From Bacteroidales bacterium (GTDB lineage Bacteria > Bacteroidota > Bacteroidia > Bacteroidales > UBA932), in contig JALFFZ010000051.1 of the NCBI GenBank assembly GCA_022777585.1, forward strand, positions 1-34,080: DNA of 34,080 nucleotides. The letters are read 5' to 3'. Positions 561 to 19,271 of the stretch are shown piece after piece; within the stretch, counting starts at the first letter, position 1; each line of letters begins with the position of its first letter. Below the pieces are notes generated by a model, which saw only the letters and a list, made by a program, of their open reading frames with translations, did no database searches and was not told the origin of the DNA. A program made the position numbers and the translations under genes.

Positions 561-580
561 TTTTTTACGGGTATATCTAC
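561..580 (+). repeat. Left copy of a possible imperfect direct repeat flanking the AT-rich block
   Basis: Six Ts, six unmatched bases, then ATATCTAC. The same pattern with the same spacing occurs at 14642-14661, at the other edge of the AT-rich block. Fourteen of 20 positions match. The bases are low-complexity, so chance similarity is quite possible. This copy includes the stop codon of the BACON/FN3 gene. Confidence 0.25.
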
Positions 581-3500
581 TTTGCCAACCTGAAATTGTC
601 GAAGAAAACCCTATTCTTTGATGCAGCTCCGGTACCTATGACAAGATATGTATCGCTTGAAGCGGACAGAATGGTAGCAGTGCAATCCTGCCATGCATCC
701 GACCTTTCAAGAGTTATACTCAGGACATTTGAGCCATCCGCAAAAGTACCCGAGCCCACTATTTCCACGTTAATGATGCGACTTGTATCCATTACACCTG
801 AAAAATACTGATAGAATCCGCAGGCGTCAAAACTGATTTTTACATCTGTCGGAGCTTCCAGCATAGAGAATGCAGGAGTGACCGCTGCGCCTAAGGCTGA
901 TGAAGAGTTCATCTGAATATATCCAGGTCGAACATATATACTCTTTTTAGTGGAGGACGGATAACCCCAGCCATTCATATCCACCGTGCCTTCAGAAATC
1001 ATATAGTCAAAACGAATGCTCTTGTCAACGGTGCAATATGTATTCAGCCAATCAGTATAAGGATATTGCGAATTGATATTTGTGGTCCAACTGAAATCAT
1101 CGCTGAAAAGCAGTGTTTCACCCGAATCAGTTAGATCGCATTTTAGAGCGGAAGACCATAGAGAAGAAGAGAAAGTCTGCGGAACCTCAGTCTTACTGCT
1201 ATCATAATTCATATGATTTGCACATATCCTGACATTATAATATGCATGACCAGGTACCGTCTTTCCTTCAAGCCCACCTATATGAACACGGTTTTCCCAG
1301 GTTTTTCCTTCGGCAACCACAATACCGTCAGGACGTACTACACGATAATCATAATCCGTCGCATTCTCCACTGCACTCCAATTCAAGTCAAAGCCATAAG
1401 CGGTATTATCGGAGACCGTTATCCCAGACGGAACCGCCAACGCAGGAATCTGAGCGGTTGGATCATAGTCATCAGCCAGTTTGACTACGGAAAAATAGTC
1501 AATCATTACTCTTCCCTTGGCAGCTGTGACAGTAGAAATCGAGAATCTTGTTTCCGCTGTAATCCCCTTCACGAAGAAAGTGCTCCGGCCCCAATCATTC
1601 CAACAGCCCAAATTGAACTCCACGCTACTGCTTCCATCCTCAAAACATCCCTCACCGACAATGGAGATGCGGACCAGGTCCGAATCATAATAATCATTTG
1701 TGCCAAGAAAAGCTGTTGCCCCCAAAGTGACAAGTGCATTGACAGCGGCGTCACTGTCAATCGTCCGGACATATGGAGTAAGAACTGAGCCTACGGCTGA
1801 TGCTGTTCCAAGTTTGATGCAACCCTCATAAAGATATGCCTTGGATACCATTTCCCAACCGGCAGATCGTATAGCTTCCGCACATTCAGCCGAGACTGAG
1901 GCAAAGCCGATTCCCGAAGGGTTGGATGGATAAGTTGAAACGAAACTGTCCTGTGTACAGAGCGCCTTTGTCACCCAGCTCAAATCATCCTCAACAAAAA
2001 CAAAACCGACTTCATGGGAATCTATGACTGTTTCAACAACAGGCTTAGTCTCTCCCTTGACCTCATCACTCCAATCCGAAGGAAGATACAATTTGTCTCC
2101 ATCTTCAGGGATAGCCCTCACTTTCAGCTTACATGCCGTACCCTCGTCAATAGAATCAAATACCACGGACACTTCACTCGTGACACCGCTTCTGGTATCT
2201 ACTTCCTGCCCACAATACAGGCAGGTATAGACATATTCATAAGCAGATGCATTCTCCACCGGCTCCCAGTTGAATTTGATTGAGTTTGGAGAAGATTCGT
2301 CTTCGTCAAAAGAAAGAGCCGGTGTTGCCAGTTTCGTCTTTACCGGTTCAAGAACAGCATCATTCCCACACTTGCTGATTGTAACATTATCAAAGAACCA
2401 GCGGTTCGCCGTTGTCTTTTCAACCGATTCAAAAACTATACGGGTGTTCTCACTTGCTCCGCGAACCAGGAACTCCTTTCGCTCCCACGGATTCTTATCC
2501 GGGAGGCCTGACTTCCATATAGCCTCAGTTTCGGCAGAGGTACTCATCGAAAACTCCATGAATTTTTCGCCGGTATCATTTATTGTACCATCACCCACAA
2601 CCCTGACCATCATCACATTCCGACTGTCAAAAGTTCCACCGGTACCATACCAGTCACAGCAGTCGAATGCCACATCCAATGTTGCAGTACATCTCTTTCT
2701 GATACCAAGCAACGGAGTCATGAGGCCACCGCCACTACCGGCAGAGTTGGAAGACCGGCCCATCTTTACATACCCAAGCCTCAGATATACCCTCTGCTTA
2801 TACTGGTCGTCACTAAGCGTCCACCCACTTGCTACCAAGGTGTTGTATGCTTCACCATGTGTCGCCTCAGTTATATTATTCCAGAAGACCTCCGTTGTAT
2901 TTGCAGGCCAACCGGCCACGTAGTCACTACCTCCATACACATCGGTTACCCAAGAGAAATCATCTGCAAAATATACGAAACCCAAAGGTTTGCCGTCGTC
3001 GCCATCCGCAGAAAACCACACTTCTTCTCCTTCGCCCTCATTCCCTTCATACAAAACAACGTCGTCAAGAACACATGGAGACAGCGCAACTATTTTAACA
3101 TGTAAATCAGATGGCTCAGTCAGGTGAAAACGGGACTCAAGTTTCGCCCATCCCGATGCACTGGCATCCTTCACAGCCAATTCCAGAGGATATTCAGAAC
3201 TCCCATCCCCCAAAACGGCGGCAATCCCATTGTAACTGCCTGTGCCACTTTGATCCTTCACATAAAAACTCAGGACAAAATTCAGGTCATCCGTTTCTAT
3301 CGGGGAGATTTCCAGATATGAAGCCTCCGATTCAGATGGATTGAAGAAAACGGCGTTGGCTCCGGATGCACCCTCATAGTCCGGAATTTCCTCAAGTTGT
3401 GAAACCAACGCTCCCGAACCGGACAGTTTTGCAAATGAAACCGCCGTTCCACTCATCCCTGATTCTCCAAACTCTGAAAGCGGAACATCACTCCGGTCTG

Positions 3501-3885
3501 TTCCGAAGTCGTCCTTCATATAGACAATCAATTCAGAAGCAGATGCTTGACGAATGGTAATCTGCGCCGTGACACCATCGTATGAATCAAAATCCAATAC
3601 TGCCTCACGCGCATCACCATGGTTTTCTGCTACATTTACCGTCACCGTCTTCGTGCCATGGCCGGCTTTCGGGTTGAGCGTTATCCACTCCGGTTCTCCG
3701 GAGATAACCCAATATACATTGGACTTCACTTCGAAAGTGACAGCCCCTCCTTCATATGTTACGCCACGCTTATTTGCATCGATGATTGTTTTGTCCAGTT
3801 CTATTACAGCCTGCTCAAGTGGTTCAACTGAGCAAGAACAAACCAGAATCGCAATTATTAGTGGAATAGCAGCAATCCTTTTCAT
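577..3885 (-). CDS. Large surface lipoprotein: BACON + FN3 + three repeated beta-rich modules
   Basis: The 1102-aa product starts with a lipoprotein signal (lipobox ending at Cys18, LVCSC) and a BACON domain at about 25-115 (WITLNPKAGHGTKTVTV). A possible degenerate jelly-roll-like region covers 120-285. A module of about 175-200 residues is then present three times (about 303-506, 629-803, 926-1101). Each copy begins with DD(F/L)SW(V/T)T, carries GW about 40 residues later, then a GYVKMG/GCIKLG/GYIQMN strand followed by a TP motif, and ends in (F/I)D(N/Y)(F/V). FN3-like domains sit between the copies at about 520-612 and 815-917 (IKFNWEPVENASAYEY; LNWSAVENATDYDY). No catalytic motif is recognised. 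It is the last gene of the SusCD operon, 12 bases after the phosphoesterase gene. A surface binding or scaffold role is inferred; a distant carbohydrate-binding function is possible but unproven. Confidence 0.85.
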   Translation of the reverse strand: MKRIAAIPLIIAILVCSCSVEPLEQAVIELDKTIIDANKRGVTYEGGAVTFEVKSNVYWVISGEPEWITLNPKAGHGTKTVTVNVAENHGDAREAVLDFDSYDGVTAQITIRQASASELIVYMKDDFGTDRSDVPLSEFGESGMSGTAVSFAKLSGSGALVSQLEEIPDYEGASGANAVFFNPSESEASYLEISPIETDDLNFVLSFYVKDQSGTGSYNGIAAVLGDGSSEYPLELAVKDASASGWAKLESRFHLTEPSDLHVKIVALSPCVLDDVVLYEGNEGEGEEVWFSADGDDGKPLGFVYFADDFSWVTDVYGGSDYVAGWPANTTEVFWNNITEATHGEAYNTLVASGWTLSDDQYKQRVYLRLGYVKMGRSSNSAGSGGGLMTPLLGIRKRCTATLDVAFDCCDWYGTGGTFDSRNVMMVRVVGDGTINDTGEKFMEFSMSTSAETEAIWKSGLPDKNPWERKEFLVRGASENTRIVFESVEKTTANRWFFDNVTISKCGNDAVLEPVKTKLATPALSFDEDESSPNSIKFNWEPVENASAYEYVYTCLYCGQEVDTRSGVTSEVSVVFDSIDEGTACKLKVRAIPEDGDKLYLPSDWSDEVKGETKPVVETVIDSHEVGFVFVEDDLSWVTKALCTQDSFVSTYPSNPSGIGFASVSAECAEAIRSAGWEMVSKAYLYEGCIKLGTASAVGSVLTPYVRTIDSDAAVNALVTLGATAFLGTNDYYDSDLVRISIVGEGCFEDGSSSVEFNLGCWNDWGRSTFFVKGITAETRFSISTVTAAKGRVMIDYFSVVKLADDYDPTAQIPALAVPSGITVSDNTAYGFDLNWSAVENATDYDYRVVRPDGIVVAEGKTWENRVHIGGLEGKTVPGHAYYNVRICANHMNYDSSKTEVPQTFSSSLWSSALKCDLTDSGETLLFSDDFSWTTNINSQYPYTDWLNTYCTVDKSIRFDYMISEGTVDMNGWGYPSSTKKSIYVRPGYIQMNSSSALGAAVTPAFSMLEAPTDVKISFDACGFYQYFSGVMDTSRIINVEIVGSGTFADGSNVLSITLERSDAWQDCTATILSASSDTYLVIGTGAASKNRVFFDNFRLAK

Positions 3886-3897
3886 ATCGATTGACTA

Positions 3898-5859
3898 TTA
3901 GTTCATTGTTATATCAAATACCTTCGGCCTGTCCATCATTTCTTCAAAAGAATTGCCGAAACGGTCAGTTACAGTAATTTTCAAATCGGAATCAGGGGAA
4001 GATGCCTGAACCATAAAAATATGTGACGATTGGACCGATGCCCAGTCATAAGTGGCGTCATATCCTTGTTCAACACGCGGAATATCGAATGACAGTGTAT
4101 GAAGCGGGTCCCTTTGATAAATACGGGTAACAGGGAGTTCAGATGTTCCTTCCTTTACAGAAATATTCCATGCGCTATCCCAATTCCATACATTTATAAA
4201 TACCACATTCTCGCCGACATCCCCATAGTCATCGCCGCCATTGTTCCTACTCGAATATTTGGCCAGAATGTCCTTTACATAGGACGTTTCAAACTGTTCC
4301 TTGACCTTGTTCATATCATAGGTGCGGAATTGCTTTTCGGCATTCTCTCCAACCCCTTTGTAATGCCAAGTCACAGAAGACCCGGAAACATCAAAAATGC
4401 CATAGCCCGAAGGGGTTCCGTCAACACATACAGCACGGCCGGAAAGGGCACTGCTCCACCACCATGTTTCACACAGAGCAGCATGATTGTGCTCATACAC
4501 ATTGGAATTGATTTCAATATTCGCATTAAAATGTGTATGACCGCTAAGGAGATGGACATTGGTAAACCCATCCAAGGCTTTCAGCAAATCAGCAGCTCCT
4601 CCGGAGGAAGCCGAGAGCCTCTCCTTCGGGCTGAAAGTACTGTTATAGTTCTCATAAACTTGTATATGGAGAGCGATAAACAGAGGAGCTGTCTTGTCCT
4701 CCACAGCTGAAAGGTCTTCTTTGAGCCACTTCAATTGTTCCTGAGTTATCTTTCCCGTGAAATTACGGCTTCCGACAACTCCATCCGCGCCGCCATCATT
4801 AGTCCAGATTATATCATCCAGAACGACAAAATGAGCCTTGCCCAGATTGAACGAATACCAACTCGGGCCCAGTTCCTTTTTATATGCGGCCTCACCATAG
4901 AAATCCCCAACCTGATATGGATCATTGTCGTGGTTACCCATAATGCAGAAATAAGGAATCTCATATCCATACTCTACCATCAACTCGCGGAAATGGGGAA
5001 AACGGAAATCGTTGTCATACCAATATCGGTCCCAGGTGACATCCCCAAGAAAAATGCAGAAAACAGGTTTTTCGGACTGTCTTGCAAACGCCGATGTTTC
5101 CGCCAGAAAACCGGCCCTGAACCGGTCCTTATCATTCAATTTATTGGCCAGATGGATGTCAGCGGCCGTAATGAGACTGAAATTATCATTACTGCATTCC
5201 TTCAACGAGAAATTATGAAGCTCACAATTGTATCGGTCCGCCTCCAAACTACACCAAAAACCCTGACGCGCGGCATCCATTTCTTCAGGCATATACCCTG
5301 AAGGAATGCTGATAAACACATACCCGTTCGACTTTTCCGATTCAAGCCAGTAAAAGCCGTTCTCATCTGTCACCGTGGTCTTCATGCCATCGGAAACTCT
5401 CACTCCGGGAACACCTCTCTCCTGACAATATACCATGCCTTTGATTGTAGCCCCAGCCTTGTCCGGGACATCTGTCCTGATAGTAAGGCTAAATCTGCTT
5501 TGAGCCAGGAACTGTTCCCGCTCACCACGTATGAGATATATATTGTAATAGCCATATTCCATTTCCAACGGAATAAGGACAGTACACGATTTCGGCAAAA
5601 CGTTTTCCACTGCGATGTCATACCTGACGGAAGCGTCGGCAGCATCGCGGAAGGATATAACATCCCCCTCAATGAAACCCGATCCGTCAATACAATAGGG
5701 CTCCCCTCTATAGACCGTTATCATTGAATGGAAATAACAGTCACTCACCATCCGCGTCTGCTGCTCAAATACGGGGTCGGGCTGTTTATTGCAAGCAGAA
5801 GCAAGGATTAAGAAAATAGCTGAGAAAGCAGCATTGATATATCTATTCATATTTTTCAT
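3898..5859 (-). CDS. Calcineurin-like metallophosphoesterase lipoprotein
   Basis: The 653-aa product has a lipoprotein signal (LILASAC, Cys23). An N-terminal beta-sandwich region (about 30-220) includes a carboxypeptidase-regulatory-like segment, GVPGVRVSDGMKTTVTDENG. The dimetal phosphoesterase core is complete: DIH (Asp234, His236), GD (272-273), GNHD (308-311), His398 in ALHIQ, and GHTH (440-443). The C-terminal 130 residues form a further beta-rich domain, as in Bacteroidetes phosphoesterases with MetallophosN/MetallophosC domains. Enzymes of this fold hydrolyse phosphomono- or phosphodiesters; the substrate cannot be read from sequence. It is the only recognisable enzyme of the SusCD operon, 4 bases from the DUF5689 gene upstream and 12 from the BACON/FN3 gene downstream. 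Met4 is an alternative start. Confidence 0.93.
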   Translation of the reverse strand: MKNMNRYINAAFSAIFLILASACNKQPDPVFEQQTRMVSDCYFHSMITVYRGEPYCIDGSGFIEGDVISFRDAADASVRYDIAVENVLPKSCTVLIPLEMEYGYYNIYLIRGEREQFLAQSRFSLTIRTDVPDKAGATIKGMVYCQERGVPGVRVSDGMKTTVTDENGFYWLESEKSNGYVFISIPSGYMPEEMDAARQGFWCSLEADRYNCELHNFSLKECSNDNFSLITAADIHLANKLNDKDRFRAGFLAETSAFARQSEKPVFCIFLGDVTWDRYWYDNDFRFPHFRELMVEYGYEIPYFCIMGNHDNDPYQVGDFYGEAAYKKELGPSWYSFNLGKAHFVVLDDIIWTNDGGADGVVGSRNFTGKITQEQLKWLKEDLSAVEDKTAPLFIALHIQVYENYNSTFSPKERLSASSGGAADLLKALDGFTNVHLLSGHTHFNANIEINSNVYEHNHAALCETWWWSSALSGRAVCVDGTPSGYGIFDVSGSSVTWHYKGVGENAEKQFRTYDMNKVKEQFETSYVKDILAKYSSRNNGGDDYGDVGENVVFINVWNWDSAWNISVKEGTSELPVTRIYQRDPLHTLSFDIPRVEQGYDATYDWASVQSSHIFMVQASSPDSDLKITVTDRFGNSFEEMMDRPKVFDITMN

Positions 5860-5863
5860 ATCA

Positions 5864-7939
5864 TTAGTTCAGACAAGAAATCCGCACTATGCCCAAACGG
5901 CTTGTTCCGTTAGCAACGTCCTGATTATCACTTGCATTACGTTGTATGGTCGCCCTCATCCTTAGAGCAAATCCTTCACGGTCAGCAAGTTCGGACGGCA
6001 ACTCGATAACGTATTCAGGGGCATGGACATCACAATGCCAGTTTGCACACACATACGGGCTTCCTATAGTGTGCCAGTTGATATCTTCTGCGTTGTCCGC
6101 CCATTCAAGTTGGAATTCTATAGGGCCATAGGTATTGCTTGAAGCAGTGAATTCCAAATACAGCTTTCCCTTCGCCCCAATAGTGGACAAGTTGGAAAAA
6201 ATCCAGCAGCAGCCGTCTGTCTGAGAATATTGGGATGCGGTATTCTGCCACCAGTTCTGAGCCATAAGTGCCAGATATTGAACGGAAATACTATTACCAT
6301 AACTTGGAAACCACTTGCCAGTCTGAGAATCGAAAGTGGCAGCTCCGTTTCTTGCATGGGCCCAGGCCCAATACATCTGATCCGTAGTGCCGGATGTTGA
6401 TCCAAGAACGGATCTGCTTACGGAATGATACAGCGTTCCACTGCCCACACTCGCCTTTACCTCGGACAAAACCAACTTGTTATCAGTCCATGGTCCGAAC
6501 TGCACGATGGTCTTTGACATGCGTGTAGAAGGGTCATTGCCGAAAGCAGTGATGTCCGACTCCCTGCGAACCCTGATACACCATGTATCTTCCTTCTGCC
6601 GATTCGTAGAATAACCCTTATACCGATCTGCCTTATACCTTTTGTTGACAATTCCCGTTATATCACCCTTGGCTTCCGGTATGAGGTGAAGTGCACGTTC
6701 AGTAAAAGACCATGTAGTATAAAGTTTTGACATTGACCCATCAGCAGCCCTGAGATAATGACCATATTCCAGAGTCAGGTCGTTATAGTCAGCACTTCCC
6801 ATATATAACGACTTCTGCTCAACACCGAGATACCCCGCTTCGTTGATGTTTACCAAAGTACCATACGGAAGGACAAACTCGACGTCCTTTATGGTGACCA
6901 GCCGGTTTTCATACTTTGAAATATCGGCGAACGATTCTAGAACAACTGGAGTGAGTTCACTGCCTGGAAGGACTGTCTTTACACATGAAGATGCCAGTTC
7001 ATCAAGTTTGATTGAATTACAGTATGAATCAATGGAGAGTTTCTGCCCGTAAAGATGTATAGACAGCTTATCTCCTTCTTCATATACATTGTCCTCAGCA
7101 TTCTCAAATTCAATCCACATCCCAGCCTCGCCGTCATCTATAAACATCGTGTTATCACTTTGAGATGCTGCATATTCTATCGGATAGTTCTTCGTGTGGC
7201 GATTGCTAATGACCACACCCTCAACATAGGTATTCCCGCTTATCGGGCCCGGACCGGCCGCCAGGATTTCCGCAATGGATTTCTTCTCGGCAAGTTCAAA
7301 TGCGGAGGACTTATCGCTCTGTGTTACAGTAAAACGCCTGCACAACTGGGTTCCAAACGCCCGTATCGAAACTTCTGCCATGCGTGGGCTGTCTGTCGCA
7401 TTCTCACTGCACTCAAAAATTTGACTGTCAGATGTAAACTCGCCCAAAGAAAGCCAATCTCCTCCCTGCTCTATCTCTGCCACCCAGCCAATATTGGAAG
7501 TAACGTTTACCTTAAATTTTTCTCCTTTATAAGAAACACTCCTGCCACTTTCATTTACACTTATTTCGAGGACCGGATCATTTCCCCCTTGGTTAAAGGT
7601 CAATGTCGCCACACTTGTCCCGGCCGTCACTATATTCAGTACAGCCGTACGCGAAGCCGCCATTGTATTCTTGGCCAGCTTTACACTGAAACGGGCATCC
7701 CCATCCCCCTCTTTCGGCCATACGGTAATCCAGGAATCATCCTCAGAATAAGTGGATATTATTTCCCAATGCCCGAAATCGGAATACATAACAAAATCCT
7801 TTGTTCCTCCATTGCTGTCAAAAGAGATGACAGTTTCTCCGTCATTGATGTCAACAAAAGAACCATGCAACTCTTCTGCGCAAGCCGATATCAACAACAC
7901 GGATAACAACAAAACTGCATATATGCCTTTATTTCTCAT
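5864..7939 (-). CDS. Two-BACON, DUF5689-domain surface lipoprotein
   Basis: The 691-aa product has a lipoprotein signal ending in LLISAC (Cys20), followed by AEEL. Acidic residues just after the lipidated Cys resemble the Bacteroidetes lipoprotein surface-export signal. Two BACON-like domains follow (about 30-117, ending in LTFNQGG; about 122-207, ending in FTVTQSD). A DUF5689-like region covers about 215-465: SIAEILAAGPGPISGNTYVEG, then VVLESFADISKYENRLVTI and a TGIV strand. The C-terminal 210 residues look like a beta-sandwich (KLYLEFTASSNTYGPIEFQLEW). No catalytic residues are evident. BACON domains are known in Bacteroidetes surface proteins and DUF5689 proteins commonly accompany SusCD pairs. 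Here the gene sits 12 bases after susD and 4 before the phosphoesterase gene. A role in substrate binding at the cell surface is inferred. Confidence 0.87.
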   Translation of the reverse strand: MRNKGIYAVLLLSVLLISACAEELHGSFVDINDGETVISFDSNGGTKDFVMYSDFGHWEIISTYSEDDSWITVWPKEGDGDARFSVKLAKNTMAASRTAVLNIVTAGTSVATLTFNQGGNDPVLEISVNESGRSVSYKGEKFKVNVTSNIGWVAEIEQGGDWLSLGEFTSDSQIFECSENATDSPRMAEVSIRAFGTQLCRRFTVTQSDKSSAFELAEKKSIAEILAAGPGPISGNTYVEGVVISNRHTKNYPIEYAASQSDNTMFIDDGEAGMWIEFENAEDNVYEEGDKLSIHLYGQKLSIDSYCNSIKLDELASSCVKTVLPGSELTPVVLESFADISKYENRLVTIKDVEFVLPYGTLVNINEAGYLGVEQKSLYMGSADYNDLTLEYGHYLRAADGSMSKLYTTWSFTERALHLIPEAKGDITGIVNKRYKADRYKGYSTNRQKEDTWCIRVRRESDITAFGNDPSTRMSKTIVQFGPWTDNKLVLSEVKASVGSGTLYHSVSRSVLGSTSGTTDQMYWAWAHARNGAATFDSQTGKWFPSYGNSISVQYLALMAQNWWQNTASQYSQTDGCCWIFSNLSTIGAKGKLYLEFTASSNTYGPIEFQLEWADNAEDINWHTIGSPYVCANWHCDVHAPEYVIELPSELADREGFALRMRATIQRNASDNQDVANGTSRLGIVRISCLN

Positions 7940-7951
7940 AATAACTGTGTA

Positions 7952-9472
7952 TTATCTGATTCCGGATGAAAGTGCCTGCTTGCTCCACCATATAGGTGTT
8001 TTCATATCATCAGCACCTTTGTAGTATGTTGACAGGCGCTCTGCCGCCTCACGATAGCTTTCAGAATTTGTCTTTGCAACATCCTGCGGATAAGCCAGTC
8101 GAGTCGGTAATATATGGTCATTCTGCGTACCCGAACCGATTACCAGTTCCGGGTATCCCGTACGTCTATATTCACACCAGGCTTCAAAGCCAACCCAGAA
8201 TAATGCGACATATTTTTGATCCAATATCTGCTTAAGGCTACCGTCATACGGGATTTTCTCAAGAAAACGGTCAATGGTGCTCTCCGGGACAACGACGCCG
8301 CTGAGATTGGTATCAGCCCAAAAACGGACGGACGCACGAACTGCATCATCATAGTATTTTTCTGCGAGTTCATCACCACCTGGAACCCATCCACGCTTGA
8401 TTGCCTCTGCAAAAATAAAAAGGACCTCATCGTACTTCATATTGGAATATGGAGAGTCATAATCTCCCAGATTCCTTTTATTTAACAAGCTTACGCCACT
8501 ATTGTCGGACTCCTGAGCTTCCTTTCCACTTTCAGCTCCTTTCCAGCCGTCGGCACTGGAGGCCTGACGAAACCAGATTGAAAGACGAGGGTCTCCCGGA
8601 GCAACCATCATATTGATAAGTTGCTCTGCCGGACGTCGGCCAGTGGTGGTAAAAGCTGTTTCCAAAGTAGAGCCGAAATAATTGACAAACGGATTAACTT
8701 GGTCATAATACAAGGTCGCATTGTCATCGTTAGAGGAAAATACCGGCCATTCGGAAGGTTTGGTGAACACCTCACATATTTTGTCAGGAACATCGAAAAC
8801 AGACGCCCGGTTACTCATCCTCATCAAAACCCTCAAGTATAATGAGTTATTGAATTTACGCCACTTAGCGATATTACCTCCATACATCAAGTCTCTTGAA
8901 CCATCTGCAAGGTCGGCAGCCGAAGCATATAAACCGTTGGCATATTCCAAGTCCTCTATAAGCCGAGCATAAATCTCCTCCTGACTGTCAAAAGATGGCT
9001 TCGTAAGGTTTTCCGTTGCACCTTTGAATGCTTCGCTGCATGGAACATCACCGAAACAGTCCGTTACATTCTGGAGAAACAGGCATTTCATCGTTATGGC
9101 TATTGCCTCACAGGCCCTGTCTTCCTTTTGAATTGCAAGTTGACGCATGTGCTCCGCATCAGCCGCCCATTTGTATAAATTTGACCATACAGAAGTCATT
9201 ACGGCATTCGTGATGACATATCTATGGTAGGAATTGTTTCCGGTACCAGAAACTGTATATTGGATAAGTTCCCCATTCAAAAGCCATGTTCTGTAAAGAA
9301 GAACCTCCGTTCCAGAGTAAACCAATTCTTGGAGTAAACCCGAAGGGCTGATATCCCCAAGTGCCATTTCATTTGGATTTCTGTTTATCTCCTCAAATCC
9401 GGATGTACAGGAAATAATGGAAGCGAATAACGGAAACAGGAAAATCTTTTTCAATATCTTTTTCATACCCAT
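7952..9472 (-). CDS. SusD/RagB-family nutrient-binding outer-membrane lipoprotein
   Basis: The 506-aa product has a lipoprotein signal ending ASIISC (Cys22). After it comes the SusD-like opening GFEEINRNPNE followed by a leucine-rich helix, typical of the SusD-like_2 branch. Downstream helical segments are consistent with TPR-like repeats (VWSNLYKWAADAEHMRQLA; IAITMKCLFLQNVTDCFGD), and the C-terminus carries LDQKYVALFWVGFEAWCEYRRTGYP, a hallmark of the family. SusD proteins cap the SusC barrel on the cell surface and deliver substrate. The gene follows susC after 5 bases, so co-translation is likely. The protein begins MGMKK; Met3 is an equally good start. The substrate is not predictable from sequence. 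Confidence 0.95.
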   Translation of the reverse strand: MGMKKILKKIFLFPLFASIISCTSGFEEINRNPNEMALGDISPSGLLQELVYSGTEVLLYRTWLLNGELIQYTVSGTGNNSYHRYVITNAVMTSVWSNLYKWAADAEHMRQLAIQKEDRACEAIAITMKCLFLQNVTDCFGDVPCSEAFKGATENLTKPSFDSQEEIYARLIEDLEYANGLYASAADLADGSRDLMYGGNIAKWRKFNNSLYLRVLMRMSNRASVFDVPDKICEVFTKPSEWPVFSSNDDNATLYYDQVNPFVNYFGSTLETAFTTTGRRPAEQLINMMVAPGDPRLSIWFRQASSADGWKGAESGKEAQESDNSGVSLLNKRNLGDYDSPYSNMKYDEVLFIFAEAIKRGWVPGGDELAEKYYDDAVRASVRFWADTNLSGVVVPESTIDRFLEKIPYDGSLKQILDQKYVALFWVGFEAWCEYRRTGYPELVIGSGTQNDHILPTRLAYPQDVAKTNSESYREAAERLSTYYKGADDMKTPIWWSKQALSSGIR

Positions 9473-9477: not shown

Positions 9478-12400
9478 TTAGAATCCTAGTTTGAGATTGA
9501 ATCCAAAGGACCTTGTCATTGGATAGCTTCCGGTTTCCACGCCCCTATAGAGTGAAGACCCTGACATGGAAGATACTTCCGGATCAAACTGAGGCCACTT
9601 TGTTATGCAAAAGAGATTATTGGCAAAAAGACCGAGAGAAATACTCCGGAAGACCTTTGTCTTTTCACAGATATGCTCCGGAAGAGAGTAATCGACCCTG
9701 AGTTCCTTCATTTTCAGATACGATGTGTCGAAAGTATTTGACTCAACATTATTCCTATTTAGGACGTAAAGATTGTAATACTCTACAATGTCCGTCGTAA
9801 TCGTAGTGTTTTTTGTATATGTACCGTCCGGATTCAGATTTACTCCCTCGTGGACAAGGCCATCATAACGTCCCGGGAGCGAGGCCGTGGTCTTGCCCAT
9901 ATAACCAAGAATCGCATTGGTAAGAGAATATGCTCGTCCACCCATAGAGGCGGCAAATGATGCACTGATGGACAAAGTCTTATATTTCAAACATGTCTGA
10001 AGGCCTCCGGTCCAGTCTGGATAAATGGAGCCAAGATCTTTCAGTTCCGTTCCAAGAACAGGGTTGCCGGTCGTCGCATTGACAATTACCTGGCCGGAAC
10101 AATCAATCTTGCTCCCGTCTTCAGCATAATAAAACGCCCCCTCCGGAGCTCGTTCATATCCTACGCCGTATATTCTTCCAAGCTCCTGCCCCGGATATGC
10201 GTATATATAAACCCTGCTGCCACAAGTATTGTTGGCATTCAATTGCCATACACTTACCCCCTCAGCCAATTCGACAAGCCGGTTCCAGTTCTTGGACCAA
10301 TTGATATCAATGCTCCACTTCCAATTACGACTGGCCAGAGGCATGAATGAGATAGCCAGTTCTATGCCTTTATTATCAACGCGGCCGGCATTTATAAGTG
10401 TAGATGCCGCACCGGTAGACCAATCGGACGGAATGTTTATAATCTGGTCAGTAGTGCTGGACGAATACCATGCTGCATCGACAGAAATGCGCCTTTTAAA
10501 GAATGACAGTTCTATTCCGGCTTCCCAGCTCTCGACATTCTCCGGTTTGATATAGTAATTAAGTGTTTCTGATGGGATATAATATGAACCGGTGAAGTTT
10601 GAAGAATTCTTGTAGCTGGCTATCAGGTTATATGGGTCGGTATCATTTCCGACATTGGCCCATGAAGCCCGGATTTTTATCATGTCAACCCAAGCGGCCT
10701 TTTTCTTTATACTGAACAGTTCATCAAGAAGTATGCTGCCACTGACAGACGGATAAAAATACGAGTTGTTGCCAGGAGCCAAAGTCGATGACCAGTCGTT
10801 TCTTCCTGTTATGTCCAAGAAAATCATATCCTTCCAGCTCGCAGATATAAAGCCATACAAGGAGTTGATTGCCTTACGGTAACGGCGGCTCGTTACCTCA
10901 ATCTGACCATTTACATTCTGGAGTATGAATACATTCGGTTCAACAAGCTGACTAGCCAGAAGAGAGACATTGCTGGAGTTCTGCATCATAGCGTTTCCTC
11001 CGAAAGATGCACTCAGATAGAAGTCCTTGATGGTCTTGTGAAAAGACAATAGAAAATCAGTATTGAACTCCAGATTTCGCACCGTCTGCTCCCTGTACAT
11101 ACCAGACAGATACGCGTGTGAGTATTGAGGTTTCTGTTGTGTGCGGAAATCATTCTGAAAATCCACACCAGCCCTCAAGGCAAGGGAAAGACAATCCGGG
11201 ATAATGTGCCCAGTTACGGACAAATTACCATAAACCCTGTCCCTATCCATTGTATTTAGATGCTCATAGGCAACAAAATATGGATTGTCCAGGCTTGAAT
11301 CACATAGTTTGATATCCGTTGCCTGTCCTGAATTCCATGCTACGATATCCCCGTTTTTCCACTCATTGTATAAATCTTCCACTGAGGCGGAAACCGGTTG
11401 CCAAAGCAAAGACTTGAGAGGAGTCGAATTACTGTATCCGCTAATCGGAAGATTATCAGAGTCCTTTCTATAGTAGGTTAGTTTAAGGGCGGCCTCAACA
11501 TAGCGGTTTCTCTTACTGCTTGCAGATACATTGAAAGACTGGGTGTTGTGCCCGGTATTCGGCACTATCCAGTCAGACCGGGTATCCTTGACAGAAACTC
11601 TCAACTGTGATCCTTTACCGTCACTGGCATCAACGGCTATACTATTGGAGAATGTAAGACCTGGCTCAAAAAATCCTATATACCAGTCACAAACCTCATA
11701 AGGGAGCAAGGTATATTCTCCGCTTTCGCGATCATAGGACTTGTACATATACCTAAGCTGCCCCTCAACCTTTTCGCCAAACTGATACCGGGAATGAAAA
11801 GCAGAAATTTTAGTTCCACTATAACTCTTGTCAGCCGCAACGGTATAGAATGAGTATTCATCAGGACTTATGCCATTGGACATATGGGAGGCCAAGGTGC
11901 TGCGGCGATAATCACCAGCGCCATACTCATATTGGAAATCCGGCCAATATCCCGGAATCTCAGTAGTTACTCCCGTACTGAAAGTGATTCCGAGTCCCTT
12001 TTGCTTTTTCCCTGATTTTGTCGTTATAACAATGGCACCATTTGCCGCACGTGAACCATACAGTGCCGTCGCTGCTGGTCCCTTGAGGACAGATACACTG
12101 GCGATGTCATCCGGGTTTATGTCGCCGGCGCCATTGCCATAATCAATTGGGGCATCAACGCTATCATATGAACCGCTTGACGAGTTTGCCGTCATACTGC
12201 TATTGATCGGGACTCCATCCACAACAAAAAGTGCTGTATTGTTATCATGCGAGAGGGAACTCTCTCCCCTGAGAGTGACGCGGACAGATCCACCAGGTCC
12301 AGCGGAGGACTGATCCATATTCAGACCTGCCACCTTGCCGGCCATTCCCGCAAGCCAATTGCCTCCATCCGTATTTCCGAGATCCTCACTGGACACCTTT

Positions 12401-13056
12401 GACACAGCATATCCAAGGCTCTTCTCTTTACGAGTAATTCCTAATGCAGTTACCACGACGGCATCAATCTGCTGAGTGGCAGGGGTGAGATCTATAGTCT
12501 GAAATGCCATATTGGGAGCGACCTCTATCATTTGCAGATTATAGCCGAGGTATTCTATTTTCAGCCGCGCTCCCACCGGCACATCATGGATTACAAATTG
12601 TCCATTAGCATCTGTGATTTCTCCTATAAGAGTTCCTTCCTGAATGACAGAAGCACCTATCACTGCCTGACCGTTCTCATCACGGACAACCCCGGAAACA
12701 TCAACACGGGATTTTGTCTCAATCTTCACATTGGAACTTTCCTGGGACTTGCGACGCAGCACAATATGCTTCCCTTCCAAAGCATATTCTATGTCATGTT
12801 CCTGAAAAATCCGAGTAAGGACCGATGAAAGATTTTCGTTCTCGGCTTTAATCGAGACGGTAAAATCCAACTGACTTTCATTAAAAACAAAGAGATAATC
12901 TGTCTGCCGTTCGATGTCATTCAGGATTATCCTTGCAGGAGTATTTTCCCTGTCGAGGGAAACCTTTCCCTTTTGAGCCAATGCCGGCAATGCCCACATA
13001 AGGAACAAAAACGGCAAAACTCTTCGCACAATTCTGCCTAAGCTTAATTTCATCAT
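9478..13056 (-). CDS. SusC/RagA-type TonB-dependent transporter with STN signalling domain
   Basis: The 1192-aa product has a cleavable signal peptide (cleavage after ALPALA, near residue 27). It continues with an STN (secretin/TonB N-terminal) domain at about 35-103, a carboxypeptidase-regulatory-like domain at about 118-206 (SGVVRDENGQAVIGASV), a plug at about 213-355 and a barrel to the C-terminus. The plug has the canonical TALFVVDGVPIN and VLKGPAATALYGSRAANGA motifs, and the protein ends in an aromatic residue (NLKLGF). SusC proteins import SusD-captured ligands using TonB energy. The STN domain marks the transducer subclass that signals to a FecR anti-sigma, and such a gene lies 25 bases upstream on the same strand. 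Family length is normal and no frameshift is seen. Confidence 0.97.
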   Translation of the reverse strand: MMKLSLGRIVRRVLPFLFLMWALPALAQKGKVSLDRENTPARIILNDIERQTDYLFVFNESQLDFTVSIKAENENLSSVLTRIFQEHDIEYALEGKHIVLRRKSQESSNVKIETKSRVDVSGVVRDENGQAVIGASVIQEGTLIGEITDANGQFVIHDVPVGARLKIEYLGYNLQMIEVAPNMAFQTIDLTPATQQIDAVVVTALGITRKEKSLGYAVSKVSSEDLGNTDGGNWLAGMAGKVAGLNMDQSSAGPGGSVRVTLRGESSLSHDNNTALFVVDGVPINSSMTANSSSGSYDSVDAPIDYGNGAGDINPDDIASVSVLKGPAATALYGSRAANGAIVITTKSGKKQKGLGITFSTGVTTEIPGYWPDFQYEYGAGDYRRSTLASHMSNGISPDEYSFYTVAADKSYSGTKISAFHSRYQFGEKVEGQLRYMYKSYDRESGEYTLLPYEVCDWYIGFFEPGLTFSNSIAVDASDGKGSQLRVSVKDTRSDWIVPNTGHNTQSFNVSASSKRNRYVEAALKLTYYRKDSDNLPISGYSNSTPLKSLLWQPVSASVEDLYNEWKNGDIVAWNSGQATDIKLCDSSLDNPYFVAYEHLNTMDRDRVYGNLSVTGHIIPDCLSLALRAGVDFQNDFRTQQKPQYSHAYLSGMYREQTVRNLEFNTDFLLSFHKTIKDFYLSASFGGNAMMQNSSNVSLLASQLVEPNVFILQNVNGQIEVTSRRYRKAINSLYGFISASWKDMIFLDITGRNDWSSTLAPGNNSYFYPSVSGSILLDELFSIKKKAAWVDMIKIRASWANVGNDTDPYNLIASYKNSSNFTGSYYIPSETLNYYIKPENVESWEAGIELSFFKRRISVDAAWYSSSTTDQIINIPSDWSTGAASTLINAGRVDNKGIELAISFMPLASRNWKWSIDINWSKNWNRLVELAEGVSVWQLNANNTCGSRVYIYAYPGQELGRIYGVGYERAPEGAFYYAEDGSKIDCSGQVIVNATTGNPVLGTELKDLGSIYPDWTGGLQTCLKYKTLSISASFAASMGGRAYSLTNAILGYMGKTTASLPGRYDGLVHEGVNLNPDGTYTKNTTITTDIVEYYNLYVLNRNNVESNTFDTSYLKMKELRVDYSLPEHICEKTKVFRSISLGLFANNLFCITKWPQFDPEVSSMSGSSLYRGVETGSYPMTRSFGFNLKLGF

Positions 13057-13081: not shown

Positions 13082-14002
13082 TTATCTAATTATGATTCTT
13101 CGACCGACACTGTCAAATTCATAGTCGAAATGGACAAGACCGGTCAACACTTTAAGAGAGTATTCAACCCCGTCTTCCTTACGAAACTTTCCTGTACAAC
13201 GAACATCCGACAGAGATGGCCTTTCTATAACGATGTTTACCCCGTAATAATTGCTGAACTCGTCCATCATCTCTGCAAAAGTTACATTATTGAGTGTCAG
13301 GATTCCATCAATCCAGGAGAATCTGTCCCTATTCGGAATATCGGAGACTGCCAGATTACCATCTGCTCCGGAGGTGGCACACTGATCCGGTTTCAGAATT
13401 ACGGATTGCATTCCATCTTTAGAACTTACCTTAACAGAGCCCTTCAGCAACGTGGTTTCAAAAGGAGCGCTTGGGTACGAACTAACATTAAAGACTGTTC
13501 CCAGGACCCGAACGTCATAATCCGATGTGGAAACCAAAAACTCTCTCTTGTCGTCTCTACTTACTTCAAAATAGCCCTCTCCCACAAGAGAAACCACTCT
13601 GCTTTTGCGACCGAAATCATTTGGATAAACCAAGGTGCTCCCTGAATTGAGCCATACTTTTGTACCATCAGCCAGTTGCAATTCCACTCGTTGACCTGCC
13701 GGCACTTTTACAATTTGTTCCAATCTCTGCGGTTTACCGAAAACATAGCCTATTAGACCTATAATAAAAACTGCCGCTGCACACGCGACAGCACGCCATA
13801 TCCCCGATATCTTCTGTCTGACCGAAGTTTCATGATTCAGATTGCCGCCTCCTGCATTCAAAAGCAGGGCAGTCCATACAAGGCGCTCTTTTTCCAAAAT
13901 CTTGCGATTTTCTTCCGATTCCATCGCCCACTCCATTATCATACGATCTTCATCAGGAGTAGTACGGGCATCAAAATAACGGATAATAGTCTCTCTATCC
14001 AT
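13082..14002 (-). CDS. FecR-family anti-sigma factor
   Basis: I chose the start at ATG 14002 (MDRETIIRYFDAR), giving 306 aa. The ORF track extends this to 14311, but that extension runs antisense through the sigma gene and is an artefact. The protein has an N-terminal cytoplasmic anti-sigma region (about 1-65) and one membrane helix (about 70-90, AACAAAVFIIGLIGYVFG-like). A FecR domain follows (about 100-200, VPAGQRVELQLADGTKVWLNSGSTL and GEGYFEVS). A C-terminal DUF4974/STN-like domain (about 235-306) begins at LTLNNVTFAEMMDEFSNYYG. FecR proteins hold an ECF sigma factor inactive until a TonB-dependent transducer signals through the periplasm. The partners are the divergent sigma gene (95 bp away) and the STN-containing SusC downstream. 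The gene order is unusual because sigma and anti-sigma are divergent. Confidence 0.94.
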   Translation of the reverse strand: MDRETIIRYFDARTTPDEDRMIMEWAMESEENRKILEKERLVWTALLLNAGGGNLNHETSVRQKISGIWRAVACAAAVFIIGLIGYVFGKPQRLEQIVKVPAGQRVELQLADGTKVWLNSGSTLVYPNDFGRKSRVVSLVGEGYFEVSRDDKREFLVSTSDYDVRVLGTVFNVSSYPSAPFETTLLKGSVKVSSKDGMQSVILKPDQCATSGADGNLAVSDIPNRDRFSWIDGILTLNNVTFAEMMDEFSNYYGVNIVIERPSLSDVRCTGKFRKEDGVEYSLKVLTGLVHFDYEFDSVGRRIIIR

Positions 14003-14096: not shown

Positions 14097-14666
14097 ATGA
14101 GTGTCTTGTCCGCCGAAAAATTTACGGAGCTGTTTGAACAATACCGGGAGCCATACATCCGATTCGCAAATTCTTTCGTACGGGATGTCCAGGTTGCTGA
14201 AAATCTATATGCAGACACATTTGCAGACTTCTGGATGCGTAAAGATATATTGCCGCCCGATTGCAGTATTCCGGCATATCTCCTCACTTCCCTGCGCAAC
14301 CGAGCTCTCAACTGTTTACGGGAAGAACGACGTCACAGAACTGTGTCAGAAAACAAAATAGGAATTGATTTGCGGGAACTTGATTTCCGTATCAGCTCAC
14401 TTGAAGACTTTGCCATACAGCCGTTATTTACGGAAGAAATAAACAATATCGTTTCCAGAACAATAGCCTCCATGCCTGCGCGGACTAAGGAAATATTCCT
14501 TATGAGCCGTAAAGGACGACTGAAAAACACTGAGATTTCCAAGGAACTTGGAATTACCGTCAAAGCCGTTGAATATCATATAACCAAGGCCTTGAAAATG
14601 TTAAGAACTGCACTTGTCGATTATTTCCCGCTTATTGCAATTTTTTTGACCAAATATCTACGATGA
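14097..14666 (+). CDS. ECF-type RNA polymerase sigma-70 factor
   Basis: The 189-aa product starts MSVLSAEKFTELFEQYREPY. The track's longer version (from 14043) would begin upstream of the -7 box TATATTTG, so ATG 14097 is preferred. A sigma-70 region 2 covers about 10-78 (IRFANSFVRDVQVAENLYADTF, ending YLLTSLRNRALNCLREE). Region 4 covers about 113-172: MPARTKEIFLMSRKGRLKNTEIS, then a helix-turn-helix ending in VEYHITKALKMLR. This is the usual Bacteroidetes ECF form paired with FecR. Its TGA overlaps the ATG of the S46 peptidase gene (ATGA at 14663-14666), so the sigma message probably continues into the peptidase. It is AT-rich like the SusCD block and unlike the peptidase gene. It is expected to activate the divergent FecR-SusC-SusD operon. 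Confidence 0.93.
   Translation: MSVLSAEKFTELFEQYREPYIRFANSFVRDVQVAENLYADTFADFWMRKDILPPDCSIPAYLLTSLRNRALNCLREERRHRTVSENKIGIDLRELDFRISSLEDFAIQPLFTEEINNIVSRTIASMPARTKEIFLMSRKGRLKNTEISKELGITVKAVEYHITKALKMLRTALVDYFPLIAIFLTKYLR
14642..14661 (+). repeat. Right copy of a possible imperfect direct repeat flanking the AT-rich block
   Basis: Part of a run of seven Ts, then six unmatched bases, then ATATCTAC. It has the same arrangement as 561-580. It lies at the exact transition from the AT-rich sigma gene to the GC-rich peptidase gene. The match is short and AT-rich, so it is a candidate attachment scar at best. Confidence 0.25.
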
Positions 14667-16618
14667 AAAAACACTTCCTTTCGATTATCGCGGCCCTGGT
14701 GCCGCTCTGTGCGGTGGCGGATGACGGAATGTGGCTGCCGAATCTCATTTCCGCGAGGATTGCCGATATGCAGGCCAAGGGCTTCCGTCTGAGTGCCGAG
14801 GACATATACAGCGTCAACCAGGCCTCGCTCAAGGACGCAGTGGTCCTCTTCGGAAGGGGCTGCACGGGTGAGCTGATTTCGTCCGAGGGACTGCTCATCA
14901 CCAACCACCACTGCGGTTACGGCCAGATCCAGAGCCATTCCAGCGTGGAACACGATTACCTCAGGGACGGCTTCTGGGCAATGACACGGGCCGAGGAACT
15001 GCCATGTCCGGGACTGAGCGTCAGCTTTCTGGAAAGGATGGACGACGTCAGTTCACAGGTGCTAAGGGGCTATGAGGCCGGAATGGGCGAACGCCAGCGC
15101 GACTCCGTTGTCAGGAGCAATTCCGCCAGACTCATCGAGGAAGCCACTGCGGACGAAAAGGGGCTGCGCGCAAGCGTGGAGGCGATGTACTACGGCAATA
15201 TATACTATATATTCATATACAGGGAATATACGGACATACGTCTTGTCGGCGCGCCGCCTTCGTCGATAGGCAAGTTCGGAGGCGACACCGACAACTGGAT
15301 GTGGCCACGCCATACGGGAGACTTCTCGATGTTCAGGGTCTATGCCGGAGAGGACAATATGCCGGCCGACTACTCCCCGGAAAACAGGCCCTACAGCCCG
15401 AAGAGATTCTTCAGCATATCCACAAAAGGGGTGCAGGAGGGGGACTTCACCTTCATCTACGGCTTTCCGGGCAGCACCAGGGAATATATACACTCCTCCG
15501 AGGTTGAATACATAAGCGAAGTCTCGGACCCGGCACGCATAGACATACGCACCCGCCGCCTGGAAATACAGAAAAGGCACATGGCCGCCAGCCAGAAGGT
15601 GCGCATACAGTACAGTGCCAAGTGCGCCTCCGTCGCCAATGCCTGGAAGAAATGGCAGGGCGAGGTCAAGGGCGTGAGGAAAATGAACACCGTGCAGAAG
15701 AAGCGCGAATACGAAAGGGCTTTCGAACTCTGGGCGGCCGGGAGCCGCTACGAAGGGGTGACGGAACGCATTGCGGCCCTTGAAAGGGAACTGCGCCCCT
15801 ACGCCTTCGCAAGGGACATATACAGCGAGACCGCATACGCCGTGGAACTGCCGAAGAAGAATCTCGTGCTGAAAGACTATGACATTGACATAGACAGGGA
15901 GAGCTTCGTTGTGGAGATGGAGGCCTTCCTCAGGTATGTCCCGGAGGAAATGCAGCCGCAGTGGTTCAGGGAGCGTCTGGCGGACTTCGGCAGCATAGAG
16001 GCCTGGTCAGAAGCTATGTTCAGAAGCGTGGACGAAAGGGAAATGGCCCTGGAATTCGCCGAGCGGATGCAGGAATGGTATCTTTCGGAGATACGGCCGC
16101 AGATTGCAAGACTCAGCTCGGAAATGGCACTGGAATACAGGACCTATATGCGCGGCCAGATGGAATTCGAAAAGGACAGGGATTTCTTCCCGGATGCGAA
16201 CCTCACCCTCAGGGTGGCATACGGCAGGGTATGCGGCTACTCACCTGCCGACGGGACCTGGTACAAACCCGTTTCCACCCTCATGGGCGTGATAGAAAAG
16301 GACAATCCGGACATCTTCGACTACAACATACCCCAGACACTGCGCGACATCTATGCCCGAGGCGGATATGAAGACACCCCGGTGTGCTTCCTGGCGAACA
16401 ACCACACCACGGGAGGCAACTCCGGCAGTCCGGTCATCAATGCGGACGGCGAACTGATAGGTTTGAACTTCGACAGGGTCTGGGAGGGAACAATGAGCGA
16501 CATTGTCTTCGACCCGGAGGTCTGCCGCAACATATCCCTGGACATACGCTATGCCCTGTTCGTCATTCGTGAGATAGGCCACGCCGGCCACCTGATCGAA
16601 GAGATGGACCTAAGGTAA
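14663..16618 (+). CDS. dpp11: S46-family dipeptidyl-peptidase, DPP11-like (Asp/Glu-specific)
   Basis: The 651-aa product has a signal peptide (MKKHFLSIIAALVPLCAVA) and the S46 hallmark motifs. The catalytic His lies in TNHHCGY (His83), the Asp within GGDTDNWMWPRHTGDF (208-220), and the Ser in GGNSGSPV (Ser587). S46 enzymes release dipeptides from peptide N-termini in the periplasm. In Porphyromonas gingivalis the residue 18 positions after the catalytic Ser decides specificity: Arg in DPP11 (acidic P1), Gly in DPP7 (hydrophobic P1). Here it is Arg605 (LNFDRVWEG), so DPP11-type specificity is inferred. The protein is some 60-70 residues shorter than typical S46 members, with the loss in the helical region between Asp and Ser. 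Its ATG overlaps the sigma stop codon. Its 3' end overlaps the convergent MFS gene by 56 bp. Confidence 0.92.
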   Translation: MKKHFLSIIAALVPLCAVADDGMWLPNLISARIADMQAKGFRLSAEDIYSVNQASLKDAVVLFGRGCTGELISSEGLLITNHHCGYGQIQSHSSVEHDYLRDGFWAMTRAEELPCPGLSVSFLERMDDVSSQVLRGYEAGMGERQRDSVVRSNSARLIEEATADEKGLRASVEAMYYGNIYYIFIYREYTDIRLVGAPPSSIGKFGGDTDNWMWPRHTGDFSMFRVYAGEDNMPADYSPENRPYSPKRFFSISTKGVQEGDFTFIYGFPGSTREYIHSSEVEYISEVSDPARIDIRTRRLEIQKRHMAASQKVRIQYSAKCASVANAWKKWQGEVKGVRKMNTVQKKREYERAFELWAAGSRYEGVTERIAALERELRPYAFARDIYSETAYAVELPKKNLVLKDYDIDIDRESFVVEMEAFLRYVPEEMQPQWFRERLADFGSIEAWSEAMFRSVDEREMALEFAERMQEWYLSEIRPQIARLSSEMALEYRTYMRGQMEFEKDRDFFPDANLTLRVAYGRVCGYSPADGTWYKPVSTLMGVIEKDNPDIFDYNIPQTLRDIYARGGYEDTPVCFLANNHTTGGNSGSPVINADGELIGLNFDRVWEGTMSDIVFDPEVCRNISLDIRYALFVIREIGHAGHLIEEMDLR

Positions 16619-17897: not shown

Positions 17898-17903
17898 TTC
17901 GTA

Positions 17904-19271
17904 CTATTTCTTGATATTCGGTTCCTCGAGGCCATAGCCCTTGCGCCTGTCCTCGGCCTTGAGCACGAGGCTGAGCAGGAAGGCCAGCACCCCGAAGGAA
18001 GAAAAGACTATCATAGGCACGAGATAGCCGCCGGTGGACTGGCGGAGGGCGCCTATGATCTTAGGCACGAAGCAGAGACCTATGTTCTGAACCCAGAAGA
18101 TCAGACAGTAGGCGCTGCCGAGTATCTTCTCGTCTATGATTTTCGGAACCGAAGGCCAGAGAGCCGCAGGCACGAGAGAGAAGCTGACGCCAAGAGTAAC
18201 GATCAGCAGCAGGGCAAACCATTTGTACGGGAAGACAGGAAGCAGGAAGGCGAAGCTCAGGTGGCAGGCTATCATTATGACCGCACCGACCATCAGCATA
18301 GACGCACCCTTGCCGACCCTGTCGAGGAATATGCCCAGGAAAGGAGTAAGAACCATTGCCAGGATAGGGAAACAGCTGAAGAGACGTGCGGCCTCGGCAG
18401 CTTCTATCTGCAGGGTGACTTCCAGGAAATTGGTGGCATAACGCTGGAACGGGAAGATGGCGCTGTAGTAAAGCACGCAGAGCAGGGCCACGATCCAGAA
18501 CATCTTGCTCTTGAATATGGCTCCGAGGTCACTCAGGTGGAACTCCTCGTCGGAGCCATCCTCACCGCCGGAAATGCCGGCCTCGGCAAGCTGACGGTCG
18601 AACTTCCTGTCCATTATTCCGAATATGACGAAGTTGAGCAGACCTACGCAGAGCAGGGCGCCGCAGAATCCGAGCGGAGCGAGTACGGAGCCGCCGAAGG
18701 ACTTGCTGATGATGGGAGCGATCCACATCACCGCGAAGACGCCCAGACGGGCTATGGCCATCTCAAGTCCCATCGCAAGAGCCATTTCCTTGCCCTTGAA
18801 CCACTTGGCAAGCACCTTGGACACATTGGTGCCCTCCATCTCACAGCCGCAGCCGAAAATCATAAAGCCCAGCGAGGCCATCTTGGCGCTTGCAGGCATC
18901 TCCACCCACCAGCTGTCGAGCCAGCCGGCAAAGGCCGTTGCCTGGAACCACTCGCTGATGCCCACGAACTTGATGGCGGCGCCCAGCACCATCAGACCGG
19001 CTGAAAGCACGCCGGAGAAACGGACTCCGAGCTTGTCGAGTATGACGCCCGCAATGATCAGGAAACCGCAGACATTGAGTATGTACTCGGAAGCGGCATA
19101 AGTGCCGAAGACACTGCTGTTCCAGTGGAGATTGCCCTCCACCAGGGACATGAGCGGGGACATAACATCGACGAACATGTAGGCGAAGAACATTGTCAAA
19201 GCCACGAGCAGGAGCACGCTGAACCTTGCAAAGGCGCTGTCGTTCATCAGTTTTTGAACTTTCTCTTTCAT
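17904..19271 (-). CDS. MFS transporter, copy 1 of a tandem pair
   Basis: The 455-aa product has about 12 predicted membrane helices and a cytoplasmic N-terminus (MKEKVQKLMNDSAFARFS). Motif-A-like loops are AGVILDKLGVR and LGIFLDRVGKGA. Signature stretches shared with the 444-aa neighbour are AKWFKGKEMALAMGLEMAIARLG, and ALWPSVPKIIDEKILGSAY followed by QNIGLCFVPKI. The two genes are therefore an old tandem duplication rather than a recent one. Two half-size or paired MFS proteins could act as separate carriers or as a heterodimer; the sequence does not decide. It is the first gene of the two-gene operon, read divergently from dxs across an 81-bp gap containing promoter-like boxes for both directions. 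Confidence 0.88.
   Translation of the reverse strand: MKEKVQKLMNDSAFARFSVLLLVALTMFFAYMFVDVMSPLMSLVEGNLHWNSSVFGTYAASEYILNVCGFLIIAGVILDKLGVRFSGVLSAGLMVLGAAIKFVGISEWFQATAFAGWLDSWWVEMPASAKMASLGFMIFGCGCEMEGTNVSKVLAKWFKGKEMALAMGLEMAIARLGVFAVMWIAPIISKSFGGSVLAPLGFCGALLCVGLLNFVIFGIMDRKFDRQLAEAGISGGEDGSDEEFHLSDLGAIFKSKMFWIVALLCVLYYSAIFPFQRYATNFLEVTLQIEAAEAARLFSCFPILAMVLTPFLGIFLDRVGKGASMLMVGAVIMIACHLSFAFLLPVFPYKWFALLLIVTLGVSFSLVPAALWPSVPKIIDEKILGSAYCLIFWVQNIGLCFVPKIIGALRQSTGGYLVPMIVFSSFGVLAFLLSLVLKAEDRRKGYGLEEPNIKK

Follow-up and report, generated by a model that had tools for sequence, protein, structure and literature searches.

The window analysed here, a 34,080-nucleotide stretch of a gut Bacteroidales bacterium (contig JALFFZ010000051.1, positions 1 to 34,080), carries on its minus strand an operon that joins a SusC/SusD pair to a calcineurin-like metallophosphoesterase (MPE). 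From comparative sequence analysis we consider it reasonably probable that this operon serves the substrate-induced capture at the cell surface, and the import, of glycerol-phosphate esters (phospholipid headgroups or polyglycerol phosphate) rather than of sugars. The genes follow the order FecR, SusC, SusD, DUF5689/BACON lipoprotein, MPE and BACON/fn3 repeat lipoprotein, with intergenic gaps from FecR onward of 25, 5, 12, 4 and 12 bp. A preliminary description of this DNA had listed SusC, SusD, a BACON/DUF5689 lipoprotein, an MPE and a modular lipoprotein, and Pfam and NCBIfam bear out this gene set. The five genes are real, but the span given there for the operon, 577-9472, omits the SusC and FecR genes. 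The same description held that the operon has no glycosidase, lyase, esterase or peptidase. This is true of the operon itself, in which Pfam detected the MPE as the only enzyme and no carbohydrate-active enzyme (CAZyme), but an S46 dipeptidyl-peptidase gene overlaps the neighbouring sigma factor gene.

Relatives of the operon are linked to glycerol-phosphate genes

Because the branches between the window clade and the GlpT-linked clade are weak in the MPE gene tree, the argument for linkage to GlpT rests on the SusC tree. There, the window protein, its Alistipes counterparts and an orthologue from the same genus form a window-type set of six rows (support 100/99), which is nested in a clade of 16 rows (support 100/100) together with GlpT-linked SusC proteins. 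Within this clade (we use L for locus, G for genome and C for contig of the window's own genome), L035, L036, L037, L039 and L040 show the order GlpD-GlpT-MPE-SusC-SusD, L047 shows DeoR-GlpD-GlpT-SusC-SusD, L073 GlpT-x-MPE-SusC-SusD and L038 GlpT-MPE-SusC; the remaining two are L034, which has an MPE and no glp gene, and L041, which stops at a contig edge. The operon DeoR | GlpD-GlpT-MPE-SusC-SusD-MPE2-BACON lipoprotein is found within the window's own family at L035, L036 and L037, and variants of it occur at L039 and L040 and, at contig ends, at L038 and L045. GlpD, GlpT and DeoR were named in these relatives by NCBIfam and Pfam, at scores under the NCBIfam equivalog cut-offs. As the second MPE of the GlpD-GlpT loci has a plain signal peptide, its site of action would be the periplasm, and these loci have the appearance of a full pathway from the surface to the cytoplasm. 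In the sister SusC clade, whose members were chosen by SusC similarity alone, 5/6 loci lie beside MPE2, PhoA-like, ENPP-like or PHP phosphoesterases. The ties of the window's SusC clade to phosphoesterases and glycerol-phosphate genes back the phosphoester target proposed in the preliminary description. Of the candidates named there, phospholipid headgroups or polyglycerol phosphate of the teichoic-acid type fit the data better than nucleic acid or phosphoglycan does.

Two Alistipes loci of the window type carry glycerol-phosphate genes themselves. In G587 (L249), Lipo-MPE-DUF5689-SusD-SusC-HADIIA-GDPD lie on one strand, with the gene of a sn-glycerol-1-phosphate dehydrogenase (G1PDH) homologue, GlpT and DeoR divergent, and in G588 (L237) the same HAD-IIA/GDPD and G1PDH-GlpT-DeoR cassette stands before SusC-SusD-DUF5689. 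The cassette of G589 stops at one contig edge (L234) and the operon starts at another (L057); in G717, a DeoR gene 97% identical to that of G588 adjoins SusC. Elsewhere in the window's own genome, unlinked to the operon, we found DeoR-G1PDH-GlpT (G1PDH at 58% identity) on C54. C5 has a GDPD lipoprotein gene together with one of the GlpT family, C32 has GlpT, and C121 has GlpA, GlpB and GlpC, each above its cut-off.

The association was also quantified. A search of 200 family genomes yielded 62 MPE matches whose genomes contain a GlpT-family match too; 20 of the 62 lie at most 10 kb from a GlpT-family gene (1.1 expected) and 12 at most 500 bp (0.06 expected), where the expectation is for genes placed at random in a genome of 2.4 Mb and the counts ignore shared ancestry. 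The DUF5689 gene was detected in 16/151 Alistipes-group genomes (E <= 1e-30), and G1PDH occurs in 14/16 genomes with the DUF5689 operon versus 56/135 without it (one-sided Fisher p 4.5e-4, likewise ignoring shared ancestry).

Other SusCD clusters were seen along the way. L110:3325-19122 and L111:2730-16178, on a different SusC branch, hold GDPD, GlpT and MPEs, with G1PDH and HAD-IIA additionally in L110; glycerol-phosphate genes have apparently been joined to SusCD independently there. At L176:464-6200, the genes after SusCD encode two metallophosphatases and a HAD hydrolase that is phosphonatase-like by eye. L184:2329-11475 places SusCD beside an adenosine deaminase and a phosphatase of the PhoA type, suggesting a nucleotide-scavenging SusCD; this phosphatase has a GDPD_2 motif and in this resembles PhoA1 of PUSII, one of the phosphate utilisation systems (PUS) in Flavobacterium.

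The module is conserved and its phosphoesterase is intact

A search for the five-gene arrangement, as the preliminary description had proposed, found SusC-SusD-DUF5689-MPE-repeat lipoprotein complete and in this order in 12 other Bacteroidales genomes (L055, L057, L058, L059, L060, L235, L236, L238, L240, L242, L243 and L244). Partial copies stand at contig ends in L043, L056, L237, L239, L241 and L246, and L247 and L248 have the operon without an adjoining last gene. Complete in 12 genomes and present in partial copies, the module is therefore an inherited unit and not a chance arrangement.

The metal ligands of the MPE had been described as intact, and we could locate all eight (D234, H236, D273, N309, H310, H398, H441 and H443). 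In an alignment of 34 homologues with 27-53% identity, each of them is either invariant or conserved to 90% or more. MetallophosN and MetallophosC both flank the calcineurin-like core (Pfam). The AlphaFold2 model is good (pLDDT 83, pTM 0.79), and its closest solved catalytic folds are SMPDL3B and SMPDL3A, acid-sphingomyelinase-like phosphodiesterases. A profile search with the MPE led to purple acid phosphatases and again to SMPDL3A; phmmer against the PDB gave no useful match. Sequence and modelled fold thus fit a phosphodiesterase or a phosphatase, without naming the substrate.

The two other MetallophosC genes of the window's genome also adjoin SusC genes, so that all three stand in SusC-type clusters: MPE-SusC-SusD-lipoprotein at L052 (C113:9339-19515) and SusC-SusD-x-x-MPE at L098 (C19:9491-17155). 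Rumen Bacteroidales have proteins of 1000-1700 aa in which the same MPE is joined with long extra regions (L075-L087); these very large fusions, together with L070/L074, were set aside as paralogues.

Lipoproteins and export signals

The repeat lipoprotein, a putative ligand-capture protein, contains BACON and fn3-like domains and three DDFSW-type beta-sandwich repeats (Pfam, repeat alignment), and Pfam found no enzyme domain in it. We rejected its reading as an endonuclease: the match to NF052644 scores 66.6 bits versus a cut-off of 260, and covers the beta-sandwich repeats. Pfam places both DUF5689 and CarboxypepD_reg domains in the operon, the latter being common to SusC proteins generally. 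The AlphaFold2 model of DUF5689 is poor (pLDDT 59), and its fold matches, generic Ig-like ones, were left unused. An order-wide search with DUF5689 matched mainly BACON domains; the Alistipes-group search is the informative one.

Surface-exported lipoproteins of Bacteroidota carry acidic residues after the lipoprotein cysteine. The lipobox reads C-SVEP in the repeat lipoprotein and C-AEEL in the DUF5689 lipoprotein, where the acidic residues suggest surface export. Acidic residues follow the cysteine in several MPE orthologues and DUF5689 proteins as well.

Regulatory genes and genomic neighbourhood

Table 1. Features of the operon and of the adjoining divergent genes (window coordinates)
Feature	Position	Strand	Length	Evidence
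BACON/fn3 repeat lipoprotein	577..3885	-	1102 aa	Pfam
MPE lipoprotein, MetallophosN-Metallophos-MetallophosC	3898..5859	-	653 aa	Pfam, motifs, alignment, AlphaFold2
DUF5689 + two BACON domains lipoprotein	5864..7939	-	691 aa	Pfam, lipobox, orthologues
SusD homologue, SusD-like_2 (PF12771) subfamily	7952..9472	-		Pfam E 1e-92
SusC homologue, N-terminal STN domain	9478..13056	-		Pfam; NCBIfam TIGR04056, 582 bits; trees
FecR-type anti-sigma factor, first operon gene	13082..14002	-		NCBIfam; start codon from sequence
ECF sigma factor gene, divergent	14097..14666	+		Pfam Sigma70_r2/r4_2
S46 dipeptidyl-peptidase gene, intact	14663..16618	+		Motifs TNHHC, GNSGSP

The divergent extracytoplasmic function (ECF) sigma factor is the probable activator of the operon (Table 1), and the STN domain of SusC is as expected for a TonB-dependent transporter coupled to a sigma/anti-sigma pair. 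The stop of the sigma gene and the start of the S46 gene overlap as ATGA. Striking as this overlap is, the S46 gene was seen beside the operon in no relative examined, and we rejected the peptidase as a member of the system. Tandem major facilitator superfamily (MFS) transporter genes, MFSa and MFSb, follow at 16563-19271; the two are likewise in tandem in L045, near a GlpD-GlpT-MPE locus. One flank of the window holds an RNA methyltransferase gene, and the other MFS transporters, dxs, EF-Tu, nusG, ribosomal proteins and rpoB.

Proposed function and alternative explanations

If the operon does handle glycerol-phosphate esters, SusD and the DUF5689/BACON and BACON/fn3 lipoproteins would bind the ligand at the cell surface, a surface-anchored MPE would cleave phosphodiester bonds of a glycerol-phosphate diester, and SusC would import the products. 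GDPDs or a phosphatase could then complete the cleavage, GlpT-family antiporters could bring glycerol phosphate into the cytoplasm, and GlpABC and/or the G1PDH homologue could pass it to dihydroxyacetone phosphate or to lipid synthesis, the unlinked genes of the window's genome thereby forming one pathway with the operon. The substrate signal would run from the STN domain of SusC through FecR to the ECF sigma factor. Polyglycerol phosphate would need SusCD, whereas small glycerophosphodiesters not obviously would. Wall teichoic acid (WTA) has Gro3P and lipoteichoic acid (LTA) Gro1P chemistry (PMC7086022), and it is suggestive that GDPD and GlpD/GlpABC (sn-glycerol-3-phosphate) together with a G1PDH homologue (sn-glycerol-1-phosphate) would deal with both enantiomers and so suit WTA and LTA, or phosphatidylglycerol. 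We put forward tentatively, and at a rather low probability, the narrower idea of a locus dedicated to the polyglycerol phosphate of Gram-positive neighbours (LTA, WTA or phosphatidylglycerol headgroups), to which the operon would contribute the outer-membrane part.

Several other explanations have to be weighed. Broad organophosphate scavenging, induced by phosphate limitation and with no particular tie to glycerol phosphate, would follow the precedent of the PUS systems, which join SusCD with phosphodi- and phosphomonoesterases (PMC8115612), and the wider SusC relatives adjoin PhoA, ENPP and PHP enzymes, not glp genes. The close relatives, however, repeatedly carry GlpT, GlpD, GDPD, G1PDH and DeoR, which points to one carbon-phosphorus product, and regulation appears driven by substrate (ECF sigma/FecR, STN domain) rather than by PhoBR, although no search for Pho boxes was made; we judge this explanation unlikely, though not negligible. 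The scavenging of nucleic acids or nucleotides, with DUF5689 and the repeat lipoprotein binding nucleic acid that the MPE trims, seems to us improbable: the operon has no nuclease or nucleobase gene, the NF052644 match, located on the beta-sandwich repeats, scores far below the cut-off, and glycerol-phosphate genes accompany the SusC relatives and two window-type loci. This explanation does draw on that weak match of the last lipoprotein, NF052644 being a type IX secretion system (T9SS) endonuclease family, on the more distant SusCD at L184 with its phosphatase and adenosine deaminase, and on the DUF5689 domain of RA0C_RS04920, a protein without which Riemerella cannot take up DNA (PMC8459023).

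Import of peptides or phosphopeptides through SusCD is suggested by the translational coupling of the sigma gene to an S46 gene whose motifs are intact. We give it very little credence: none of the relatives examined has S46 next to the operon, and the conserved module contains no peptidase, its constant enzyme being the MPE. Nor do we expect an ordinary glycan polysaccharide utilization locus (PUL), in which the MPE would dephosphorylate a phosphorylated glycan and the glycosidases would be located elsewhere. BACON and SusD proteins are typical of PULs, and the MetallophosC gene on C113 likewise adjoins SusC and SusD genes; but the operon has no CAZyme, the module recurs in 12 other genomes without one between its genes, and the closest relatives pair with glp genes, so that this too is most improbable.

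The glycerol-phosphate reading has its own difficulties. Domain scans linked no glp gene to the operon within the 34 kb window, and most window-type loci other than those of G587 and G588 are without the glycerol-phosphate cassette. In the window-type operon DUF5689 has replaced glpT/glpD, and the substrate could have changed with it. The exact substrates of GlpT, GDPD and G1PDH are uncertain because their scores fall under the NCBIfam equivalog cut-offs. The expected MPE-GlpT counts depend on an assumed genome size and on random placement, and neither the linkage counts nor the G1PDH counts are phylogenetically independent. The resemblance of the MPE fold to the solved phosphodiesterases is modest (TM 0.28/0.42), and the export signal after the cysteine of the window's MPE is weak (C-NKQPD) compared with that in Alistipes (C-SEEEP). 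Finally, because DUF5689 occurs in the Riemerella DNA-uptake protein, nucleic-acid scavenging stays alive as a rival.

Most SusCD systems are presumed to feed on glycans. Should the glycerol-phosphate reading be true, gut Bacteroidales would have a conserved SusCD family tied to glycerol-phosphate metabolism. Many loci now without annotation would gain a substrate that can be tested, the PUS concept would reach beyond soil Flavobacterium into the gut, and it would suggest how Bacteroidales may reuse headgroups of phospholipids or teichoic acids from the Gram-positive bacteria around them. If the teichoic-acid version were true, gut Bacteroidales could eat envelope polymers of Firmicutes.

Comparison with known systems

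Our literature search, of incomplete coverage, brought up no account of a SusCD system that serves the uptake of glycerophosphodiesters or teichoic acid. The preliminary description went too far, however, in holding that no comparable characterised system exists. In Flavobacterium, the PUS are phosphate-controlled SusCD operons whose sole enzymes are phosphomono- or diesterases (PMC8115612). As described there, PUSI and PUSII of Flavobacterium johnsoniae resemble the window operon in that phosphodi- or monoesterases accompany SusCD while CAZymes are absent, and PUSI also holds a PF00149 calcineurin-like enzyme. PusD1 and PusD2 belong to PF07980/PF14322 (PusD is described as polyphyletic) versus PF12771 for the window SusD, and PUS are induced by phosphate depletion, whereas sigma/FecR control is predicted for the window operon; the accessible part of the report mentions no glp cassette, DUF5689 or repeat lipoprotein for PUS (PMC8115612).

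Canonical Sus-like PULs share SusC, SusD, surface lipoproteins and ECF sigma/FecR with the window operon, but have at least one CAZyme where the window operon has none and a phosphoesterase as sole enzyme. Glycerophosphodiester use by GlpQ-GlpT-GlpD in enteric and other bacteria is similar in that the operon's relatives carry GDPD, GlpT and GlpD/GlpABC/G1PDH homologues; that route employs a porin and GlpQ, as opposed to the active SusCD, surface lipoproteins and calcineurin-like enzyme proposed here. In Riemerella, the gene pair RA0C_RS04915/RS04920 encodes a surface protein that has DUF5689 and, next to it, an outer-membrane protein that has a carboxypeptidase-regulatory domain; this pair serves DNA uptake in natural transformation (PMC8459023), whereas the window has a true SusCD with a phosphoesterase. 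The pairing of SusCD with a phosphoesterase is thus already known; the window operon differs in its SusD family, its predicted sigma/FecR control, its DUF5689 and repeat lipoproteins and, as far as the accessible account of PUS allows the comparison, its kinship with glycerol-phosphate loci.

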